Source: a virus. From it: 20,095 nucleotides of DNA. The translations under genes and the position numbers were made by a program. This document shows, in pieces, positions 5,520-18,085 of the stretch; within the stretch, counting starts at the first letter, position 1, and every line of letters begins with the position of its first letter. The DNA lies in IMG/VR virus record IMGVR_UViG_3300047322_001132, positions 1 through 20,095 of that record; one strand, 5' to 3'. The notes beneath the pieces were generated by a model, which was given only the letters and a program-made list of their open reading frames with translations, made no database searches and was not told the DNA's origin.

Positions 5520-5835
5520 TCCTCTTGTACACGGAAGTGTAGTCGACGCCCAGGCGACGCGCAACCGCCGTCACTCCCGTAGCTTCAATCTCATCCAGGA
5601 GGTCCTCAGTCACGTCGAACTTGACGTACTGGGCACCTCCTTGCGTCTTGACTTCGATCTGGAACCGTTCGAACGCGAGCCTCACCGTGTGCCGCGAGAT
5701 CATTAGCTCGTTGGCGATGCCCTCGATCGACTTGTGCTCCTTGTACATCACTTCGAGCATCAGCTTCGGAATACCTGTCTCACCTGTCGGATCCGTGAAG
5801 CCGCGCTCCTTCGCAATTTTCGGCCAATCGATCAT
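5413..5835 (-). CDS. Small protein with two helix-turn-helix segments
   Basis: The gene encodes 140 aa from an ATG that overlaps the helicase-like gene stop (ATGA, 5832-5835), with GAGGG about 9 nt upstream. Two helix-turn-helix-like segments can be read: residues ~36-60 (SIEGIANELMISRHTVRLAF) and ~86-108 (TGVTAVARRLGVDYTSVYKR). The tail is very basic (DARRKRREQRE), then rich in Pro, Glu and Gln. This fits a DNA-binding regulator or a small terminase-like or replication accessory protein; the first is favoured, but no partner is evident. It is the last gene of the long leftward operon, and its 3' end runs antisense into the amidase. An in-frame extension upstream to 6123 exists, but it lies inside the helicase gene and lacks the coupled start. 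Confidence 0.75.
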   Translation of the reverse strand: MIDWPKIAKERGFTDPTGETGIPKLMLEVMYKEHKSIEGIANELMISRHTVRLAFERFQIEVKTQGGAQYVKFDVTEDLLDEIEATGVTAVARRLGVDYTSVYKRTKDARRKRREQREEPEQPCAEPQDEKGTPPHGEDQ

Positions 5836-7208
5836 TGTTTCCAACCCTCTGCCGTAAGCAGATACTTCCCACTCTTCGTGTCTTTGATGATGAGACCGGC
5901 CTGTACTCCGGTCTCGATGGTCTGTTTGAACGTCAGTGCGTTCATCTTCTTGCTGTTGAGGCGAAGCAACTCGCTGTGCCCTGCTCCACCCTGTCTTCCT
6001 TTGAGCTGTTTGATCAGTCCGCCGAGCGCTGCTCCTTGTTGTGACTCCTGCAGACTGTCGAAAGTCCCTGGTAACCATGCTTCGATCCAGTCGAGAATAC
6101 GGACGGCGTGTTGTAGGTGGCATCGCTGCATCTCCAAGTGATTGCCGCCCTCGCTGACGTTTAGTAGCATGGCGAGCCGCATTGCGTGATCGGGTTTTCT
6201 TTCGTAATACCCGCTGAATTGTTTGTTCTCGTGACGCTGTCGCTGGTTAGTCGTATACCACGACATGTACCAGTCCCGGCAGTCCGACGACATCATCACC
6301 TTCCCGCGGATCTGCGTGAGAAGGCGTAGCCTCTCCATCAGAGCGAACTTCTGCTCCTTATCCATTTCAGGTGGTAGAGGAAATGAACGTGGTGTGTCTT
6401 CTTGCACGACGAACAGTAGCCTCGATATGAAGCCACCTCCAAACGCGCTTTTGGGGATTTCCGTCTGAATCCAGTCCAGTGTACTCGCCCCCAGAAACGT
6501 AAGGGCCACGTTCCGCAATTCTGCATCACCACGCATGATCGTCGCTGATTTCCAAACGTCAGGACAATCCATAAGTCGGGTGAGCATCGGAACCATGCCC
6601 TCTTGGTACTTCTGCTTTCCGAGAAAGGCAGCGAGCTCTGGAGCATAGAGGAGGCCAGTTGCCGGATTCTTATCCTTGAGAGATTCAACGAGGACTTCTG
6701 GCGTGAGCTTGTCGGCGAGGACATTGAGACCTATTCCGTTCATCATGTTCACGGCGATTTGACATGCGGACGTCTTTTTGCAGCGGCCGCTCGGCGCCAC
6801 GATGACGACGCAGAGATTCGGAAAAAGCTGATACGGGCCCATGTCGTAGAAGAGATTGCGGGAGAGGGCTGACGATATCGCCATCATCCCCGCAAAGAAG
6901 TGGAAGACCGTAGGAGGCTCGGTATTCCGCGTGTATCTCACGTAGTCAGCTATCCAGCCGCTCCGTGGGACGAGGTCGTCAAAGTCATTCGGGCGAGTTG
7001 CTGATGGATCAACTTCCCTCCTAACGTCCTCAATTGTCATGTGGAAGACTCGAGCGAGACTCGAGTACAGCTCCTCAGGACGTGCCGCCGGTGATACGTC
7101 TCGCACCCAAGAGAAGATTTTCGTCTTCGACTCGGGTGCGATATCGGTCATCGTATTGAGCGCATCCATCAGCTTGTGAATCTGGGTGGAGAGCTCAAGG
7201 TCCTTCAC
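5832..7208 (-). CDS. DUF3987-type helicase/primase-like ATPase
   Basis: Length is 458 aa from the GTG at 7208. I chose this start because GGAGG lies 8 nt upstream and GTG overlaps the dpdA stop (GTGA). An ATG at 7229 would lengthen it by 7 codons but lies inside dpdA. The central part resembles DUF3987 phage ATPases: a P-loop-like segment APSGRCKKTS (~138-147), LADKLTPEVLVESL, the Walker B-like LLYAPELAAFLG with E191, and a later FLGASTLDWI and GGGFISRLLFV. The P-loop departs from GxxxxGKT, which I believe also occurs in phage members. The C-terminal ~60 residues look like a winged helix. Next to the polymerase, the likely role is replicative helicase or helicase loader. No TOPRIM or zinc primase domain is seen, so priming activity is unproven. 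Confidence 0.8.
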   Translation of the reverse strand: MKDLELSTQIHKLMDALNTMTDIAPESKTKIFSWVRDVSPAARPEELYSSLARVFHMTIEDVRREVDPSATRPNDFDDLVPRSGWIADYVRYTRNTEPPTVFHFFAGMMAISSALSRNLFYDMGPYQLFPNLCVVIVAPSGRCKKTSACQIAVNMMNGIGLNVLADKLTPEVLVESLKDKNPATGLLYAPELAAFLGKQKYQEGMVPMLTRLMDCPDVWKSATIMRGDAELRNVALTFLGASTLDWIQTEIPKSAFGGGFISRLLFVVQEDTPRSFPLPPEMDKEQKFALMERLRLLTQIRGKVMMSSDCRDWYMSWYTTNQRQRHENKQFSGYYERKPDHAMRLAMLLNVSEGGNHLEMQRCHLQHAVRILDWIEAWLPGTFDSLQESQQGAALGGLIKQLKGRQGGAGHSELLRLNSKKMNALTFKQTIETGVQAGLIIKDTKSGKYLLTAEGWKQ

Positions 7209-7930
7209 GCGAGAAACCTCCGAAGGCATGCCACGTTATAGAGGGCAGTGGCCATCTGGTCAAGTTCCATTTCAGGCGCGTCGAGGAAGCTGTCGTAGTG
7301 AGGCCAGGCACCGTGAGTGGTCGTCACGTTGTCCAGGCGCTCTACTTTATATCCCCACTTCAACGGCTTCGAGGTGTCGAACGTCCCTTTCGGAAAACGT
7401 GTTGCTGCTCTCCTCGCCTCGGAGAGGTCCTGCATTCCGAGGAAATGTACTTGCTTCCCGAGGTCCCAGCCTTTGTGGTGGATATCGAACTCCGCTATCC
7501 ACGCTTGACGATCTCTTCGATAGGGGAAGCAGATCGTCGGTACGTACATCATTCGGTAGAGCTCGAGCAGGCCCATTCTATCACCTTCATCGTCTCCGAC
7601 GATCACTGCCGCAGTACGAAGGTTGAACTGCTCCAAGCACCATTCGAGGTTGTTCCGAGTGAACTCTACGTCGTCGATGCGGTCAGGGCTAATCACGATG
7701 TCCGCCGCGATGATCGATTGTGCGATGACGATGTCTTCCCTCTTCGCCATATGCCCGAGTTCGTGGAAGCCGTTGTCGAGAATGATCGTTCTTCCCTTCT
7801 CACGTTGACCGACGAAGAAGTCTCTATACTCCCTGTCTCCGACAATCCTGTGTGCTATGGCGAAGTCGAAGTCCGTCAGGCGACTCAACTCCTCTGCGTG
7901 TGACTTTGGAATTTCCATTCCTAGCTTCAT
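7205..7930 (-). CDS. dpdA: DpdA-like DNA 7-deazaguanine transglycosylase (TGT superfamily)
   Basis: This 241-aa protein shows a TGT-like fingerprint. LDNGFHELG (51-59, Asp52) sits where TGT has its DSGGFQ loop. SPDRIDD (81-87) follows at a beta-strand end, VHFLGM (161-166) matches the conserved HLLG-like strand, and FDTSKPLKWG (184-193, Asp185) is where a catalytic Asp and base-contact residues are expected. DpdA is a TGT relative that exchanges guanine in DNA for preQ0. Supporting context is strong: folE, queD, queE and queC are all in the window. The ATG overlaps the polymerase stop (ATGA), so synthesis is probably coupled to replication. It is short for the TGT superfamily, and I see no zinc-binding Cys cluster like that of bacterial TGT. 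The assignment rests on motif order plus context, not on an alignment. Confidence 0.8.
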   Translation of the reverse strand: MKLGMEIPKSHAEELSRLTDFDFAIAHRIVGDREYRDFFVGQREKGRTIILDNGFHELGHMAKREDIVIAQSIIAADIVISPDRIDDVEFTRNNLEWCLEQFNLRTAAVIVGDDEGDRMGLLELYRMMYVPTICFPYRRDRQAWIAEFDIHHKGWDLGKQVHFLGMQDLSEARRAATRFPKGTFDTSKPLKWGYKVERLDNVTTTHGAWPHYDSFLDAPEMELDQMATALYNVACLRRFLA

Positions 7931-10287
7931 CCGAGCAACTCCTTCGTGAGGGAGGCGTTACCTTCCTTCGCCTCTTTCCAATTGAGGCCGAAAACTGTCT
8001 CAGCGGGACAGCTCCAGCCCTGCGGATAGTACACCCTGATCATGTCGGGATTCGCACTCGCCTCGACAATCTGGGGCCACTTTCGATTCATGTGAGTGTC
8101 GACACACTCCTTCACTTGCTTCGCCAGGTCCTTTGGTGTGACGCCTACGACTTCGTCATGGACGCTTAAGCGGAGAGAAGCTCCTGCGGGTAGGTCTCCG
8201 TCAATGTCGATGATCGCATCGTACATCATGTCTGCGGCGGTGCTCTGCTGAGGGAAGTTGTAGACTTCCGTTACTTGCCTGGAGAACCACCATCTCCGTC
8301 TGTTCCACGGATTCTTGAGGTAGCCGTTCTTCTCGACGAACTTGACGTTGCGTTCTCTCCACTTCCAGAACGTTTCGAAACGCTTGGCGAACTTGCTAAC
8401 GAAGGTCGTCACCCTGACAGTCGCCTGTTGATACGTCAGCCCCTGATACGAAGGCGTCTTCATCAACTGCTTGACGATGGACGGAATGCCTCGTCCGTAA
8501 GAGAGACCGTAAACGATAAACTTAGAATCGTAACGTTCATCCTTAGTAACGTCCTCGATTCGCTTACCAGAGGTTTCGGCAGCAATTCCGTAGTGCTGGT
8601 CGACTCCCGAGGCGAGAAGATCCAATCCCACCTTGTCTCCTGAGAGAACCATTGCAAGTCTCCACTCAACTTGACTCCAATCGGCGGAGAAGAAAACGTG
8701 CTCCGGAGTGTCCGGGATGTAAATCTCCCGAAGCTCCAGCGGGATGTTCTGAGCGTTGGGTTCCCACGAGTTAAGTCGACCAGTTGCAGCCTTCGCCGTG
8801 CCAAAGCGAGGGTGAATATAATTGGAGGAGTCAGTCTCCACGCTGACGAAGGTACTGTCAGCTTTGAGAAGGCTGCGCCTTTCGATGATTTGGAGGAAAA
8901 CGGGATTGTCCGAGATTTGGGCAAGGTTTTCTAACGCCTCCTCATTTGCGGTAGGACGCTGACCACGATTTCGATCCCGTACGTATTGCACGGGAAGACC
9001 GAGGTCTTCGTAGAGGACTTTCATCAGTTGTTTCGGACTGTCGAGGTTGAGCGTTTGATCACCGAAACCTTCCTTCAGGACGGCTTCGATTTCCATCGCC
9101 CTCTTCCTCATGACGAACGACCACATGATCGCCTTGTCCACGTCCTTCTTCAGGCCCTTCGCGGACATGCGACGAAGGATCGGCTGGACAGGCGCAACGT
9201 GTTTCGTGTAGAGGTCGAGCATGTCGAGAGAGCGTAGCTCCTTCTTCATCTCGAGGAAGGCGCGCGTCGTGCTGTCGATGTCCTTACAGTTATACGTGAA
9301 GAGATCGCCCTTCTTCGCCTCGTCCTTCCAATACGGCATGTCTGTGTAGAACGAGGCGACAGTGGCAAGGTCCTTCTTCATGTCCGAGTTGATGAGGTGA
9401 AACATCAACATCGTGTCCCAGGTGGGACCGTTGAAGTGAACACCTTTGTACTCGAGGAAGGGTTGGTCGAAAGACTCAGAATTCTGCCCGACTTTCGCAA
9501 CGCGACCGTCGAGCATGATCTCCGCGTGGACTTTCCTCATCTCAGGGTGCCAGCGGAAGCACGTGCTTTGGCCAGGGAGGACTCCCAAGCCATTGCAAAT
9601 GATGTCGCTGTTACGAGGGTCTAGGTTCGTCGTCTCAAGGTCGTAGACTACGTAGCCGTGCTCAAGTGCGAGAGCGTGAAGGTCTCTCGCTTCCTGCACA
9701 CTCCCGTCTCTCACGTAGGCAGTGGGAACGCGACGAATCTCAGGAAAGGCACTCTCCCCGAGGACCCGCTGAAGATCGAAGATTGGATAGGCAAACGCGC
9801 CTTGATCCCTCATTACGTAGGCGGGGTGGAGTGTTCCAACAACTTTCACACCCTCCAGCCCCGGCAGCGGAACACCTCGATGCAGAAAGATCCCCGTTTT
9901 GTACGTCAGGGCATTGAGAGGGGTATCCCCCATCGCCGCTACGACGTTGGGCTTGACGTCTTGGATCTCCTGCGTGAGGATAGTTGAGCAACACGTAATC
10001 TCTTCTCCCGTGGGTTTTCTGTTGCCTGGAGGACGGCACTTAACGGCATTCGTGACGAATACGTCCTTACGACTAATCCCAGCCTTCGCGAGAAGTACTG
10101 TAAGAACCTGGCCACTTCCACCGATGAAAGGACGACGATATCGGGCTTCTTCTTCTCCCGGCGCCTCACCGACAACCATAATTCTTGCGTTGGCGGGTCC
10201 TTCGCCGAATACGGGGCCCGGTGCGTGGTATAGAGGACATTGCTGACAGAATGACGGTTTTCCTGCGCCATGATCTTCTTCCTCCAC
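7927..10287 (-). CDS. UDG-DNA polymerase I fusion (family A, with 3'-5' exonuclease)
   Basis: This 786-aa fusion has three parts. Residues 1-180 are a family 4/5-type uracil-DNA glycosylase: C14/C17, GEAPGEEE (40-47), TNAVKCRPPGNR (C84), C99 or C100 as the fourth iron-sulfur ligand, and LHPAY (H154). Residues 210-350 are a DnaQ-like proofreading exonuclease: YDLET (D216/E218), NSESFD (N269/D274), YNCKD (Y332/D336). Residues 360-786 are a family A polymerase: motif A ADWSQVEWR (D536/E541), motif B R585-K589-Y593-Y597-G, motif C VHDE (710-712). No 5'-3' exonuclease is present. UDG-like domains on phage polymerases are known (for example SPO1). GTG starts inside the folE stop (TAGTG), with GGGAGG 5 nt upstream. 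It is the replicative polymerase of this phage. Confidence 0.95.
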   Translation of the reverse strand: MEEEDHGAGKPSFCQQCPLYHAPGPVFGEGPANARIMVVGEAPGEEEARYRRPFIGGSGQVLTVLLAKAGISRKDVFVTNAVKCRPPGNRKPTGEEITCCSTILTQEIQDVKPNVVAAMGDTPLNALTYKTGIFLHRGVPLPGLEGVKVVGTLHPAYVMRDQGAFAYPIFDLQRVLGESAFPEIRRVPTAYVRDGSVQEARDLHALALEHGYVVYDLETTNLDPRNSDIICNGLGVLPGQSTCFRWHPEMRKVHAEIMLDGRVAKVGQNSESFDQPFLEYKGVHFNGPTWDTMLMFHLINSDMKKDLATVASFYTDMPYWKDEAKKGDLFTYNCKDIDSTTRAFLEMKKELRSLDMLDLYTKHVAPVQPILRRMSAKGLKKDVDKAIMWSFVMRKRAMEIEAVLKEGFGDQTLNLDSPKQLMKVLYEDLGLPVQYVRDRNRGQRPTANEEALENLAQISDNPVFLQIIERRSLLKADSTFVSVETDSSNYIHPRFGTAKAATGRLNSWEPNAQNIPLELREIYIPDTPEHVFFSADWSQVEWRLAMVLSGDKVGLDLLASGVDQHYGIAAETSGKRIEDVTKDERYDSKFIVYGLSYGRGIPSIVKQLMKTPSYQGLTYQQATVRVTTFVSKFAKRFETFWKWRERNVKFVEKNGYLKNPWNRRRWWFSRQVTEVYNFPQQSTAADMMYDAIIDIDGDLPAGASLRLSVHDEVVGVTPKDLAKQVKECVDTHMNRKWPQIVEASANPDMIRVYYPQGWSCPAETVFGLNWKEAKEGNASLTKELLG

Positions 10288-10847
10288 TACGGCCTCCCGA
10301 TCAGCATCATGATTTCTTCACGGGCCTTCGAATCAACAAAGAAGGCTCCTCGCATCGCGGAAGTGACGACGTCAGCGTCGGAACGTATGCCTCGAAACTG
10401 CATGCATCCGTGCCGGCCGGTGATGATAACACAGCACCCGATAGGCTCGAGGTGTGCTTCGAGAGCATCTGCAACATCTTGTGTAAGTTGCTCCTGCAGG
10501 ACGGGCATGGACAGTCGCTCTTCAACTGCTCGAGCCAGTTTAGATAGGCCCAGAGCCTTTTTCTTGGGAATATACGCAACGTGTACTCGCATTGGAACCG
10601 GCTGCAAGTGATGCGGACAGAGGCCGATGACTTCGTGGTTCCGAAGGAGGACGGCGCCCCGGTACGATGTGGGAAAAGTCTTCCAGTTAGATGCGGCTGG
10701 GGAGAGCATTTCTTTGAAGAGGCTGGCGACGCGTTTCGGCGTCTCTTTGTAGTTGTCGTTTTCGACATCGATTCCCATTCCTTGTAGGAGGAGCGTAACG
10801 CCTTGCTCCATTTTGGCGGTGTTAAAGCGACTGCGTTTCTTGGTCAT
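10287..10847 (-). CDS. folE: GTP cyclohydrolase I (FolE)
   Basis: This 186-aa cytoplasmic enzyme opens GTP to 7,8-dihydroneopterin triphosphate, the first step of preQ0 synthesis. Zinc ligands are visible as C77, H79, H80 (LCPHHLQPVP) and C148 (RHGCMQFRG). Other family blocks are AYIPKKKALGLSKLAR (91-106) and LQEQLTQDVADAL (117-129). Length is slightly below the ~220 aa of E. coli FolE, mostly at the N-terminus. The ATG overlaps the stop of a 31-codon gene (ATGA), with GGAGA about 6 nt upstream. The stop overlaps the polymerase GTG. With queD, queE and queC present, its job here is base modification, not folate supply. Confidence 0.97.
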   Translation of the reverse strand: MTKKRSRFNTAKMEQGVTLLLQGMGIDVENDNYKETPKRVASLFKEMLSPAASNWKTFPTSYRGAVLLRNHEVIGLCPHHLQPVPMRVHVAYIPKKKALGLSKLARAVEERLSMPVLQEQLTQDVADALEAHLEPIGCCVIITGRHGCMQFRGIRSDADVVTSAMRGAFFVDSKAREEIMMLIGRP

Positions 10848-10939
10848 CGTTTTCTCCAGGCGATGAGGAGCAGGATGAGAGCCCAGGCGGCGAGGATGAG
10901 GTAATATCCCCAGTCTGCCATCAAGGCTCCGTCCGGCAT
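10844..10939 (-). CDS. 31-aa single-pass membrane microprotein between queE and folE
   Basis: A 31-codon gene fills the gap between queE and folE exactly. Its ATG shares one base with the queE stop (TAATG), and its TGA overlaps the folE ATG (ATGA). The product begins MPDGALMADWGYY, then has a hydrophobic stretch (residues ~12-28, LILAAWALILLLIAW), and ends in RKR. That is a single membrane-spanning helix with a positive cytoplasmic tail. There is no signal-peptide cleavage site. The second Met (residue 7) is an alternative start. Function is unknown; possibilities are a membrane-anchoring partner of a neighbouring enzyme, a small lysis or exclusion factor, or a peptide whose main role is to couple translation of queE to folE. 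Confidence 0.7.
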   Translation of the reverse strand: MPDGALMADWGYYLILAAWALILLLIAWRKR

Positions 10940-11586
10940 TATCGCACTTTCAGAAGCTTGTGCATCTGCACACTGAGGCGGAGTTCAGGGTGTTGACGCT
11001 GGAGGTCCTGGACGACTTTCAGGGCTTCGAAGTCAACTTCGTACTTCTTGTTGCACGGTTGGAGGAAGGTGGGTTTGGCACACTCATTCGCGAAGTAGAG
11101 TGCGTCGTCGATCGTTGGCCAGCCTGGACCGTTGCCGAGGCCGCCGACAATCACCTTGACTTCCTTGCAGGGGGTGACGTTCTCTTTGAGCCAGCCGGGT
11201 TTCGGACTCATCGTAATCCAGATTTGGTCGTGCGACGCCCAGTCAGGCAGTTTGATAGTGCCGGACGTTTCGATGTGGATCTGGAAGTCGTCCTGGATGA
11301 AGGCTTCGGCGAGGTTCTCAAGGTGAGGCTGGTCGAATGGCTCACCGCCCGTAAAGCAGACGTGAACGAGTTCATTGGCCTTCGCCCAGTCTACGAGAGC
11401 GGTCAGCGTGAGAGATCCGCCACCTTTCCACGGATCCATCCTGTCGAAGTCCGTGTCGCAGTGGTGACAGACTTTCTTCCCGACGCTGCATCCCGTAAAG
11501 CGAATGAAGCCCATGAGAGTCCCTGCGTACACGCCTTCGCCTTGCGGACTGACGAAGCGTTCAGCGATTTGGAATGAGTGATGCAT
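10939..11586 (-). CDS. queE: 7-carboxy-7-deazaguanine synthase (QueE), radical SAM
   Basis: This 215-aa protein converts 6-carboxytetrahydropterin to 7-carboxy-7-deazaguanine (CDG), the ring-contraction step of preQ0 synthesis. The N-terminal ERFVSPQGEGVYAG (9-22) is typical of QueE. The iron-sulfur cysteines are C33, C40 and C43, followed by DTDF. The SAM-binding FTGGEPFDQP (78-87) and ETSGT (106-110) are present. The cysteine motif is CX6CX2C, not CX3CX2C, a variant that deserves note. The ATG lies 26 nt inside the 3' end of queD, with GAGG about 10 nt upstream. The stop is shared with the 31-aa gene (TAATG). Confidence 0.95.
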   Translation of the reverse strand: MHHSFQIAERFVSPQGEGVYAGTLMGFIRFTGCSVGKKVCHHCDTDFDRMDPWKGGGSLTLTALVDWAKANELVHVCFTGGEPFDQPHLENLAEAFIQDDFQIHIETSGTIKLPDWASHDQIWITMSPKPGWLKENVTPCKEVKVIVGGLGNGPGWPTIDDALYFANECAKPTFLQPCNKKYEVDFEALKVVQDLQRQHPELRLSVQMHKLLKVR

Positions 11587-12031
11587 GGTTCTCGTACCTC
11601 GCGCTCGTGTTGGAGCTCTCGTAAACCGTTACCGCGCTGACGTACATGCTTCCGTCTTCTCGGCCGATCTTCGCGTCGAGTTCTCCGAGCCAGTGTTTGG
11701 CCAGGCACTCCGCCGTTGGCGGAGCACCGATCTCGAAGATTCGATCCATGCCCAGGCGAGCGTTTGAGACGCCACCTTCCCACGCGTAACGCTGGAGCTC
11801 GGCGAACGGATCGCCCATCTCGCAGACGAAGGCGTGGTCGTACTTCTTGAAGACGGCTTCCATCTCCCGTTTGAGGTCGGAGAAGTCGATGACCATTCCC
11901 TGCTCGTCGAGACTGTCAGCCTGGACTTCCACCTCAACGCGATAGTTGTGTCCATGGATGTGACGACAGAGCCCTGCGTGATGCTGCAGGCGGTGTCCCA
12001 TGGGAAATTCAATGCTGCGTGTTACGATCAT
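11561..12031 (-). CDS. queD: 6-carboxytetrahydropterin synthase (QueD)
   Basis: This 156-aa protein of the 6-pyruvoyltetrahydropterin synthase fold makes 6-carboxy-5,6,7,8-tetrahydropterin from dihydroneopterin triphosphate. Zinc ligands are H13 (FPMGHRL), H26 and H28 (HIHGHNY). The catalytic Cys is C22, four residues before the HGH motif, as in QueD. VIDFSDLK (47-54), YDHAF (D65/H66) and VYESSNTSARY (E138) are the other family blocks. It is somewhat longer than E. coli QueD (~120 aa), with an insert around residues 70-100. The ATG overlaps the stop of the 62-aa gene (ATGA). The 3' end overlaps queE by 26 nt. Confidence 0.95.
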   Translation of the reverse strand: MIVTRSIEFPMGHRLQHHAGLCRHIHGHNYRVEVEVQADSLDEQGMVIDFSDLKREMEAVFKKYDHAFVCEMGDPFAELQRYAWEGGVSNARLGMDRIFEIGAPPTAECLAKHWLGELDAKIGREDGSMYVSAVTVYESSNTSARYENHASLIPNR

Positions 12032-12216
12032 GCGGTCAAGTCCTTAATGCGCCTGAGGAGATCGACAAGATCGACGGCGCACTTGTCGATGATGGCGTAA
12101 AGCTCTTCCTTCGTGACATCGTTCAGCGTGAGTTTGGCGTGACCGTGAAGATCGAGTGTTTCGACAGTCAAGCGGAGCTTTGCGTGTCCGCCTTCCAAGA
12201 CTCTGTCGATCTTCAC
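12028..12216 (-). CDS. 62-aa hypothetical protein upstream of queD
   Basis: I do not recognise this family. The gene starts with GTG overlapping the stop of the DUF5664-type gene (GTGA, 12213-12216) and ends with TGA overlapping the queD ATG (ATGA, 12028-12031). That tight placement is the main evidence that it is real. The ribosome site is weak, so it probably depends on coupling. The N-terminal half has two similar strands (GGHAKLRLTVETLDL and HGHAKLTLNDV), suggesting a small beta-hairpin. The C-terminal half looks helical (KEELYAIIDKCAVDLVDLLR). A small accessory protein of the preQ0 genes or of nucleotide metabolism is possible but unproven. Confidence 0.6.
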   Translation of the reverse strand: MKIDRVLEGGHAKLRLTVETLDLHGHAKLTLNDVTKEELYAIIDKCAVDLVDLLRRIKDLTA

Positions 12217-12566
12217 GCGGGCACCGCGTCTCTATGTTTCTCTCGAGCTTCCCAGAGCATCATCAGAGCCCACGCTGCGCCTGCAAGGTCGTCGTCGGTC
12301 TGGTGAGGGAAGTCTCCGTGGTTGTGGTAGTGGTTGGAGAGCTCTTGGAGGTGCTTCAGGCCGTGCGCGAAGCCTTGCTCGATGAAGTCGCGGTCAAGCA
12401 GGCCTTTGCGGTAGTTGAAGCGTCCATACTTCACCTCGCCCTCGTCACCCCGACGAGCGATGAGCTCGAGAAACCCTTGAGGGATGCGAGTCGTATTAGG
12501 GAGCTTCTCCGACCGCCGTGCGCCGCTCGAAAAGGCCGTGTCCTTGTCTTTCTTCTGCTTGGGCAT
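12213..12566 (-). CDS. DUF5664-type protein, putative dATP/dGTP diphosphohydrolase
   Basis: The 117-aa product resembles the phage DUF5664 family (also called dATP/dGTP diphosphohydrolase N-terminal domain). Recognisable features are the early FSSGARR block, PQGFLELIARRGDEGEVKYG, FNYRKGL and a late helix with DDDLAGAAWALMMLWE, in the usual order. Members are thought to have an all-alpha, MazG-like fold and to trim purine deoxynucleotides; this is family-level knowledge, and no activity can be read from sequence. ATG at 12566 has a GAGAGGA ribosome site ~7 nt upstream. The first 71 nt overlap the membrane-protein gene. Next to preQ0 genes, a role in dGTP pool control is an inference. Confidence 0.7.
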   Translation of the reverse strand: MPKQKKDKDTAFSSGARRSEKLPNTTRIPQGFLELIARRGDEGEVKYGRFNYRKGLLDRDFIEQGFAHGLKHLQELSNHYHNHGDFPHQTDDDLAGAAWALMMLWEAREKHRDAVPA

Positions 12567-14258: not shown

Positions 14259-14732
14259 TTAGGCTTCTTCCTTCTCTTCCGCCACGTCCTCGTCGTCGTC
14301 CTCTTCCACGCCGATTTCGTCTTCGGCCCAGGCGGTGATCTCTTCCGCAATCGCAGTCAGATCGCTGCTCGAGAGTTCTTCGCCTTCGACGAGGCCAAGC
14401 TGCTTCGTCACTTCTTCCAAGAAGGTCTTCTTTTCCATGCTTTCGCTCCTAGTGAATACGGCGAGTACGTCTCGCTCGTCAACGGTGCAGAACATTCTGC
14501 CACCGAGTTGAAATTCCCTCTCCGAGTACTTCGAAAAGAGAATGCGCCGACCGTCGAGGACTCGTCCGTCCCAGTCTCCGGCAGCGTTGTGAATGTGAAC
14601 GAGTCCGCTTTGCGCACGGATCCGCTCATTGTCGGGCATGTGAAGAACGACCTTCCCATCCTTCGAAACGTACACGCCGGCGTCAGCGTCTCGTGTGACG
14701 ATCATCATCCCGTAGAGAGGGCGGATGTTCAC
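14259..14732 (-). CDS. GroES-like (Cpn10) protein with acidic C-terminal tail
   Basis: From the GTG at 14732 the product is 157 aa and begins MNIRPLYGMMIVTRD, close to the MNIRPLHDRVIVKR start of GroES. Residues 1-95 follow the Cpn10 pattern: a mobile-loop region with KVVLHMP, SGLVHIHNA near the GEVLAVG position, VLDGRRILFSKYS where GroES has the 'GD-V-F' strand, and a final TVDERDVLAVF. The last ~60 residues are an added helical and very acidic tail (EEDDDEDVAEEKEE). AAGGAGG lies 4 nt before the GTG, and the GTG overlaps the 27-aa gene stop. A longer ATG start (14768) exists but lies in the 27-aa gene. Phages such as T4 (gp31) replace GroES for capsid folding; a similar role here is inference. 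Confidence 0.75.
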   Translation of the reverse strand: MNIRPLYGMMIVTRDADAGVYVSKDGKVVLHMPDNERIRAQSGLVHIHNAAGDWDGRVLDGRRILFSKYSEREFQLGGRMFCTVDERDVLAVFTRSESMEKKTFLEEVTKQLGLVEGEELSSSDLTAIAEEITAWAEDEIGVEEDDDEDVAEEKEEA

Positions 14733-14812
14733 CTGTCCTCCTTCGACCATTGGAGGTATCCGCACCAAGCGCAGAAGAAGCCGATCCAGAAAGTAGGCCA
14801 GTCCCAGATCAC
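14729..14812 (-). CDS. 27-aa Trp-rich microprotein between nuclease and GroES-like genes
   Basis: A 27-codon gene fills the gap exactly. Its GTG overlaps the nuclease stop (GTGA, 14809-14812), and its TGA overlaps the GTG of the GroES-like gene (GTGA, 14729-14732). A GGAG motif lies ~7 nt upstream. The peptide starts MIWDWPTFWIGFF, continues with CAWCGYLQW and ends in SKEDR. It has five Trp and a short hydrophobic, probably membrane-inserted core, and a CxxC pair. The family is unknown. Its layout resembles the 31-aa microprotein at 10844-10939. Confidence 0.6.
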   Translation of the reverse strand: MIWDWPTFWIGFFCAWCGYLQWSKEDR

Positions 14813-16710: not shown

Positions 16711-17000
16711 TATTGGAAATCCTCCTCTTTGACGAGGACGACATCGCCGACGATCGGACTTGTCGTGCCTGGATGACAGACGCTGTGGTAGAGCTTCGTA
16801 GCCTTCGCATTGAAGGGAAGCTGCTTTGCGTAGCCGTTATCGTCCACGAGCATCACCTGCTTGTGTATACGTAAGTTCACGATGTTCACGCAGTCGCAGT
16901 TGATGAGACGGTGCACTTCACCGAGGATGTAGTCTTCGGGGTTGAGGTCGAGAACGTGAGTCTCTTCCGTACCGTTCGCACGAATCACTTCGACTGTCAT
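16710..17000 (-). CDS. DUF3846-type protein
   Basis: From the ATG at 17000, which overlaps the queC stop (ATGA), the product is 96 aa. The C-terminal block VMLVDDNGYAKQLPFNAKATKLY followed by SPIVGDVVLVKEED matches the DUF3846 pattern of phage and plasmid proteins (a short acidic strand, LPxNxxAT, then GDVVVV). Function of that family is unknown to me. There is a Cys pair (CDC) in the middle. The upstream in-frame extension to 17096 lies inside queC. Gene order queC-DUF3846-nucleotidyltransferase is very tight, so the three are co-translated. Confidence 0.7.
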   Translation of the reverse strand: MTVEVIRANGTEETHVLDLNPEDYILGEVHRLINCDCVNIVNLRIHKQVMLVDDNGYAKQLPFNAKATKLYHSVCHPGTTSPIVGDVVLVKEEDFQ

Positions 17001-17674
17001 GCTGCGTACGTTGTGGGATCGAATCCCTCCAACGCCTCTTTGCGTTCCACGCACGTGCCACACAGGCCGCAGTGGACGTCCTTTCCTTCGTAGCACGAAT
17101 ACGTCAAGCGGATCAGCTCCGGACGGTTGTTGATGATCTTGCCGATGCTCCGCTTGGACAGCGTGATGAAGGGAGTGAACAGCTCAATCGGATCGAAGTG
17201 GATCCGTTCGAAGAGGACGGAGAGTGCCTCTGCAAACTCGGGACGACAGTCCGGGTATACTGCGTGGTCCCCCGCGTGAGCAGCGTATGCGACAGTCTTC
17301 GCGTTCGTGGAGATCGCCCATGCTGCTGCGTAGTTGAGCATGAGGCTGTTGCGGTTAGGAACGACAGTCACTCGCATGCTCTCGTCGGCGTAGTGACCGT
17401 GTGGAACGTCGATCTCGAAGTCCGTCTGCGAGGACCCTCGGAACGCGTCCTTCGGCAGCCTGATGATCTTGTGCCGCACGCGAAGCATGCTCCCGATCGC
17501 CATCGCTGCGGTGAGTTCACGAACGTGGCGTTGTCCGTAGTCGAAGCTGATTGCGGTGACTGCCTCGTTTCCGTGACGGTCCACGCACATCTGCAGGAGA
17601 GCGGACGAATCTAACCCGCCGCTGAAGCATACCACGATTGGTGGCACGGTGTTCTGGAAATCTTTCCTCAACAT
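16997..17674 (-). CDS. queC: 7-cyano-7-deazaguanine (preQ0) synthase (QueC)
   Basis: This 225-aa enzyme uses ATP and ammonia to turn CDG into preQ0. The PP-loop is SGGLDSS (18-24). Zinc cysteines are C194, C202, C205 and C208 (HCGLCGTC). Other family blocks are SFDYGQRH (43-50), VPNRNSLMLNYAA (105-117) and HAGDHAVYPDCRPEF (133-147). Length fits stand-alone QueC (E. coli ~231 aa), so no glutamine amidotransferase domain is fused; such a fusion makes the archaeosine-type base in phage 9g. ATG is chosen with AAGGAG ~9 nt upstream; a TTG seven codons earlier is less likely. A terminator-like hairpin lies 28 nt upstream. Confidence 0.96.
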   Translation of the reverse strand: MLRKDFQNTVPPIVVCFSGGLDSSALLQMCVDRHGNEAVTAISFDYGQRHVRELTAAMAIGSMLRVRHKIIRLPKDAFRGSSQTDFEIDVPHGHYADESMRVTVVPNRNSLMLNYAAAWAISTNAKTVAYAAHAGDHAVYPDCRPEFAEALSVLFERIHFDPIELFTPFITLSKRSIGKIINNRPELIRLTYSCYEGKDVHCGLCGTCVERKEALEGFDPTTYAA

Positions 17675-17701
17675 TGAATGCAACTCCTTGACCAAACGAA
17701 A

Positions 17702-17737: not shown

Positions 17738-18085
17738 TTAGGCCTTGAACCCGAATTCCTTCACGTCGATGCCCTGCTGTTGGGCCGCGGCGATCAGGAG
17801 CTTGGTGCGTTCCTGGCGAGCCGTCCGATAGGCCTTCTGCTTCTCCTTGACCTCGGGGCGAGCCATGTACGCCTTGCGGTGCTCGGTCCGCTTCGCCTGA
17901 ACCTCGGGGCGCGAGTTGTACTCCTTCGAGTACTGCTTGCGCTTCTCCTGGTTTTCGGGCTTGGAGTTGTACTCCTTCTGCTTGGCCATGTGCTTGGCCT
18001 GCAGATCCTTCGCCTTCGCCAGTTCAGCGCGAACCTGGTCAGGCGTCATTGCCGCGATCTCGGTTTGGAACTTGGACATGTCCAT
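17738..18085 (-). CDS. 115-aa highly charged repeat protein
   Basis: The product is rich in Lys, Arg, Glu and Gln and is dominated by three tandem 17-residue repeats (residues 32-82), each ending in a turn-like segment such as EYNSRPEVQAK or AYMARPEVKEK. A helical N-terminus (TPDQVRAELAKAKDLQAK) and a short tail (QQQGIDVKEFGFKA) flank them. Such Y-x-x-RPEVK-repeat proteins occur in other phages; I know no function for them. A basic coiled-coil or helix-turn array that binds DNA or protein is plausible. ATG at 18085 has AGGAG ~10 nt upstream; a second Met two codons later is less well placed. It is the first recognisable gene after the promoter at 18207-18236. Confidence 0.75.
   Translation of the reverse strand: MDMSKFQTEIAAMTPDQVRAELAKAKDLQAKHMAKQKEYNSKPENQEKRKQYSKEYNSRPEVQAKRTEHRKAYMARPEVKEKQKAYRTARQERTKLLIAAAQQQGIDVKEFGFKA
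17840..17992 (-). repeat. Three tandem 51-nt coding repeats (17 residues each)
   Basis: Residues 32-48, 49-65 and 66-82 of the 115-aa protein align without gaps. The shared core is Y(N/M)(S/A)(K/R)PE followed by a short charged turn. The copies differ by several substitutions, so they are old or selected rather than freshly duplicated. Confidence 0.7.

Follow-up and report, generated by a model that had tools for sequence, protein, structure and literature searches.

In the chemistry of tRNA-guanine transglycosylases (TGT), an Asp nucleophile attacks C1′, guanine leaves and a new base takes its place, with a second Asp handling the protons. Bacterial DpdA (7UI4) and TGT (the E. coli enzyme and mouse TGT, 7B2I) share with the protein described here a (βα)8 barrel in which the nucleophilic Asp of strand β8 is aligned; both are larger, however, and E. 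coli TGT has a CxCxxC zinc motif that our protein lacks.

Related enzymes are also found in phages. DpdA of phage 9g (DpdA1, 317 aa) has collinear D72, H196 and D215, no CxCxxC, and a gene adjoining preQ0 and replication genes, but it is longer than our protein. DpdA2 of Vibrio phage nt-1 shows a similar motif style (DSGGLQ, MLGFG and YDSSTHT) and is encoded next to FolE, QueD and QueC, yet at 464 aa it is nearly twice as long. A shorter family includes gp206 of Flavobacterium phage immuto (YP_010114477, 264 aa, annotated as DpdA), whose gene adjoins those for FolE, QueD, QueE and QueF, and a 258-aa protein (PHROG_19058) of the Campylobacter phages CP220, CPt10 and F379. In 2023, Cui et al. 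reportedly named a DpdA3 and described it as allowing complete guanine replacement. Purely as a lead, the short family may be this DpdA3, and the clade discussed below may fall outside their set. The description fits the Campylobacter members, since CP220 and CPt10 carry the short family and 100% of the dG in their DNA has been reported as dADG (PMC8306585); the 2019 survey had listed Campylobacter phages of this group without DpdA (PMC6884629). By analogy, this record of the Campylobacter relatives suggests that complete guanine replacement may be possible within the short family.

Here we analyze a 20,095-base stretch of viral DNA (IMG/VR record IMGVR_UViG_3300047322_001132), hereafter the window. 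One of its open reading frames very probably encodes a DpdA-type DNA-guanine transglycosylase, and we hold it highly likely that the product is a single-domain enzyme of the short family that places into DNA the preQ0 made by the phage's own FolE, QueD, QueE and QueC.

The probable dpdA gene and its neighborhood

The reading frame, proposed as a compact DpdA candidate by a first-pass annotation made from the sequence alone, proved to be real. It runs from an ATG start to a TGA stop and encodes 241 aa with the motifs LDNGFHELG, SPDRIDD, VHFLGM and FDTSKP in the order proposed, and Asp is found at both positions named, 52 and 185. Its only Cys residues are at 98, 134 and 235. The polA gene lies directly upstream and the gene for a DUF3987 protein downstream (Table 1).

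Table 1. Positions of the predicted genes, and of key DpdA codons, in the window
Feature	Position	Strand	Evidence
DUF3987 (primase/helicase-like) protein, GTG start	5832..7208	-	Pfam PF13148 E 7e-11
Short DpdA-type DNA-guanine transglycosylase (predicted)	7205..7930	-	241 aa; ORF, AF2 barrel, Foldseek, profile alignments
Asp185, predicted nucleophile	codon 7376-7378	-	profile alignments
His162	codon 7445-7447	-	profile alignments
Asp83, predicted base recognition	codon 7682-7684	-	profile alignments
Asp52, predicted proton handling	codon 7775-7777	-	profile alignment to 9g DpdA
Family A DNA polymerase (polA); uracil-DNA-glycosylase domain at the N terminus	7927..10287	-	PF00476, PF03167
FolE (GTP cyclohydrolase I), first preQ0 step	10287..10847	-	Pfam PF01227 E 5e-44
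QueE-like radical SAM (7-carboxy-7-deazaguanine synthase)	10939..11586	-	Pfam Radical_SAM E 4e-8; PHROG_2076 E 2e-24
QueD (6-carboxy-tetrahydropterin synthase)	11561..12031	-	Pfam PTPS E 9e-34; PHROG_2389
dATP/dGTP diphosphohydrolase N-terminal-like, near queD	12213..12566	-	PF18909 28.5 bits, cut-off 27
QueC (preQ0 synthase)	16997..17695	-	Pfam PF06508 E 3e-50

The stop of polA and the start of dpdA share ATGA, the stop of dpdA and the GTG start of the DUF3987 gene share GTGA, and a GGAG-type ribosome-binding sequence lies upstream at both junctions. From these two couplings, which are indeed present, the first-pass annotation had gone on to suggest action at the replication fork with consequences for target choice. 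That extension found no support. Overlaps of 4 nt are common in this operon and are also seen on both sides of a 62-aa ORF, where it meets the dGTP hydrolase gene and queD, and because such overlaps connect nonreplication genes as well, coupling to the fork is left unsupported. Gene order also varies among members of the polA-linked clade described below: three farther members (L016, L018 and L019) keep the order polA-dpdA-DUF3987 with little or no overlap between polA and dpdA, and in L020 dpdA precedes folE rather than directly following polA. The arrangement likely shows co-expression with replication genes; on whether the enzyme acts at the fork it is silent.

FolE, QueD, QueE and QueC together convert GTP to preQ0, and this full pathway is encoded in the window. 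Among the 38 relatives whose sequence context spans 14 kb or more, 34 carry two or more of these four genes. A search for QueF-type genes in the window and in contigs of the polA-linked clade, which may be incomplete, found none, and dPreQ0 is therefore the likeliest product. Correspondingly, preQ0 is the likeliest base to be inserted, with unrecognized later steps being possible. The annotated QueF of immuto, which is matched by none in the window, was the only one that we encountered; QueF matches in Youna2, BSP7 and G005 were rejected, as they coincide with FolE genes and are cross-matches within that fold.

Three further representatives of the polA-linked clade also have the dATP/dGTP diphosphohydrolase-like gene. 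It might be an accessory that tunes the dGTP pool during guanine replacement. Elsewhere in the window, a protein with a GroES-like Cpn10 domain (PF00166) is encoded in the phage replication region (14259-14768, minus strand), and a small Lys/Arg-rich protein (17738-18085, minus strand) is built of repeat units of the type NSRPEVQAKR / MARPEVKEKQ.

Predicted fold, catalytic residues and family membership

With an alignment of 38 family members as input, AF2 modeled the window protein with a pLDDT of 92.7 and a pTM of 0.89 as a complete (βα)8 barrel of eight alternating β/α units, in which D52 is the final residue of β3 and D185 that of β8. A TIM barrel had been anticipated by the first-pass annotation, with any other fold counting against it, and none arose; in the model, the two Asp residues are predicted to sit where, in barrels of this type, the strands end at the active site. 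In a Foldseek search of the PDB, mouse TGT (7B2I) ranked first (E 1e-5) and DpdA 7UI4 second (E 3e-5), with moderate TM-scores of 0.62 and 0.59 to these solved structures, and other TIM barrels, many at E values of about 1e-4 to 1e-3, ranked behind them. Matches in BFVD included a 259-aa protein of Cellulophaga phage phiST (TM-score 0.86) and several phage queuine tRNA-ribosyltransferases.

Profile comparisons placed the residues in the same way. Aligned by hhalign to 9g-type DpdA (E 8e-4), the family pairs D52 with D72, H162 with H196 and D185 with D215, and none of 60 block-shuffled controls reached this score. In the alignment to E. coli TGT (E 0.015), D185 falls on D264. Barrel and residues together thus place the protein in the TGT/DpdA superfamily, its two Asp being equivalent to D89 and D264 of E. 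coli TGT, an equivalence drawn for D52 via D72 of 9g DpdA and not directly via D89. Taken singly, the hhalign comparisons (to E. coli TGT, nt-1 and 9g) have low probabilities, and the best PDB match of the family profile, DpdA 7UI4, is weak (E 0.075). An AF2 model of 9g-type DpdA, intended as a positive control and built from four sequences only, reached a pLDDT of 51 and was left unused.

Standard searches with the single window protein gave no match in Pfam, NCBIfam or the PDB sequences; two PHROG families without a known function were matched, but only weakly. The TGT domain PF01702 likewise found nothing in the window, a weak test because DpdA2 of nt-1 also escapes it. Among named phages, tblastn identified immuto gp206, proteins of Campylobacter Firehammervirus, and homologues in Weizmannia phage Youna2 and Bacillus phage BSP7; the latter two are annotated as hypothetical proteins and are encoded between a FolE/QueD/QueE/QueC cluster and polA. 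A scan of IMG/VR yielded at least 276 relatives on viral contigs, and none was found in the cellular genome contigs searched. At the nucleotide level, no named phage matched the window in a megablast search.

Across 38 homologues on viral contigs, R47, D52, N53, E57, P82, D83, R141, H162, L164, G165, E171, D185, T186, P189 and N232 are invariant, which argues that the motifs are not due to chance. The family profile recovered phages outside its training set (F379, E 1e-76; Youna2, E 1e-29; BSP7, E 2e-28), and the window protein belongs to this short, immuto/CP220-like family (PHROG_19058) by profile match, invariant residues and linkage to preQ0 genes. It is a distant relative of the named members. 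Immuto gp206, the annotated DpdA, shares the positions of the catalytic Asp residues, His162, Arg141 and N232 but is only ∼24% identical, with VVQGKT and DTSNPV in place of VIVGDD and DTSKPLK; the Campylobacter homologue is ∼20% identical, and its F379 copy is not adjacent to polA. In Firehammervirus phages CP220, CPt10, CP21 and F379, and at L008:5001-5777, the short homologue is labeled a hypothetical protein. At 241 aa, the window protein stands at the small end of a family whose members mostly have roughly 250 to 290 aa.

It is neither a 9g-type nor an nt-1-type enzyme, since the short-family profile misses both and nt-1 DpdA2 has 464 aa. Nor does the window protein show the length of about 420 to 464 aa and the mutual profile match that would mark it as a DpdA2; with nt-1, hhalign gave a weak alignment over 44 columns. 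Run without a positive control, the 9g-type profile matched neither the window nor any of nine other records. The absence of a zinc site, which the first-pass annotation had singled out, turned out to be the rule: CxCxxC occurs in 0 of 38 short members, 0 of 4 9g-type and 0 of 6 nt-1-type DpdAs, which makes its absence ordinary among the sampled phage DpdAs, and the Cys3His site (CxCxxC...H) of tRNA-guanine transglycosylase proper is likewise found in none of the 38. In fold, residue placement, homology to 9g DpdA and the preQ0 genes of the window, the proposed identity as DpdA is supported. Short-family DpdAs are already recognized in other phages, and the window protein is a divergent member.

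The polA-linked clade and divergence of dpdA

In a maximum-likelihood tree, the window protein and eight relatives formed a polA-linked clade with support 100/99, separate from the group of immuto and the Campylobacter phages; the deep joins of this tree are uncertain because some branches are long. In place of VQG, the motif aligned with the base-reading Gln of TGT (Q187, E. coli numbering), members of the clade have V, C or others, with Val110 in the window protein, and DTSNPV has become DT[S/A]KPxK. As judged from these sequences, the well-supported polA-linked lineage of nine, without the base-reading Gln and with DT[S/A]KPxK, is new at the clade level. We consider it possible, if rather doubtful, that the clade represents a functionally distinct 241-aa single-barrel DpdA which, having lost the guanine-reading Gln and gained DT[S/A]KPxK and [F/L]P[Y/F]RxxR, would replace most or all genomic guanines whatever the sequence around them, and might insert another 7-deazaguanine.

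Between the window and its relative L005, polA, folE, queE and the DUF3987 gene encode proteins that are 96 to 99.6% identical, whereas the two DpdAs share only 65%, and dS reaches 1.44 in dpdA compared to about 0.5 in polA and DUF3987. The drop in DNA identity coincides with the ends of dpdA, which suggests that the allele was replaced between the two. In other pairs, dN/dS of dpdA is about 0.2 to 0.3, compared to 0.04 to 0.1 in polA and DUF3987, and queD also evolves faster at the protein level. More generally, dpdA and the block comprising the dGTP hydrolase gene, the 62-aa ORF and queD (11561-12566) show 44 to 80% amino acid identity between close relatives, compared to about 88 to 99% for the genes between and around them. 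Variable sites of DpdA are rarest in the strands and active-face loops (29% of sites in these loops, compared to 69% in the outer helices and 59% at the C terminus). Switching of target specificity found no support as an explanation of the fast divergence, given that the variation lies mostly in outer helices and the C terminus and that dN/dS is about 0.2 to 0.3.

Proposed mechanism and alternatives

From the predicted fold, the placement of residues, the homology, the pathway genes and their linkage to dpdA, we infer the following course of events. Phage FolE, QueD, QueE and QueC would convert GTP to preQ0, and the barrel would hold a guanine of DNA as its substrate. Asp185 would attack C1′ of the guanosine, releasing guanine, and preQ0 would then be joined to that position while Asp52 handles the protons. 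The outcome would be 7-deazaguanine-modified phage DNA that may resist restriction.

Since TGT belongs to the same superfamily and is the top fold match, the enzyme might instead act on RNA, raising preQ0/queuosine in host tRNA for better translation while the phage's own DNA stays unmodified, a role suggested by Hutinet et al. (2019) where a phage has preQ0 genes and no recognized DpdA (PMC6884629). We regard this as improbable, because the zinc-containing C-terminal domain of E. coli TGT (CxCxxC at 302) is missing, the profile fits 9g DpdA better than TGT (E 8e-4 versus 0.015), and relatives are carried by Campylobacter phages whose DNA is reportedly fully substituted. A resemblance to TGT through the common barrel fold alone, in an otherwise unrelated TIM-barrel enzyme, could be argued from the many such barrels in the fold search, but it is scarcely credible given that TGT and DpdA take the first two ranks, that the motifs and the catalytic Asp follow the order seen in DpdA, with a score above all shuffled controls, and that linkage to preQ0 genes is strong.

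Modification could also precede polymerization, with the polymerase using a modified dGTP and the window protein acting otherwise on preQ0 or nucleosides, for example in base exchange at the nucleoside level that yields the modified deoxynucleotide. The adjacency of the gene to polA in the clade and in Youna2 and BSP7 would suit such a route, as would the dGTP-diphosphohydrolase-like gene in the cluster of four clade members, and a route of this kind has been proposed for Campylobacter phages (PMC6884629). That proposal, however, predates a known DpdA in Campylobacter phages, a gap that the short family fills; fold and catalytic residues match transglycosylases acting on polynucleotides, and the dGTP-hydrolase family was undetected in the Campylobacter, Flavobacterium and Bacillus relatives, all of which makes this route very unlikely in our view. 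Exchange of guanine within DNA remains our preferred reading.

If our reading is right, phages with modified DNA are under-called, because Pfam and NCBIfam miss the polA-linked clade. The window would then encode a DNA-guanine transglycosylase of very small size, reduced to the barrel and without a zinc domain. Such an enzyme would be a good minimal system for how these enzymes choose, or do not choose, their guanines, and a possible tool for replacing guanine genome-wide.
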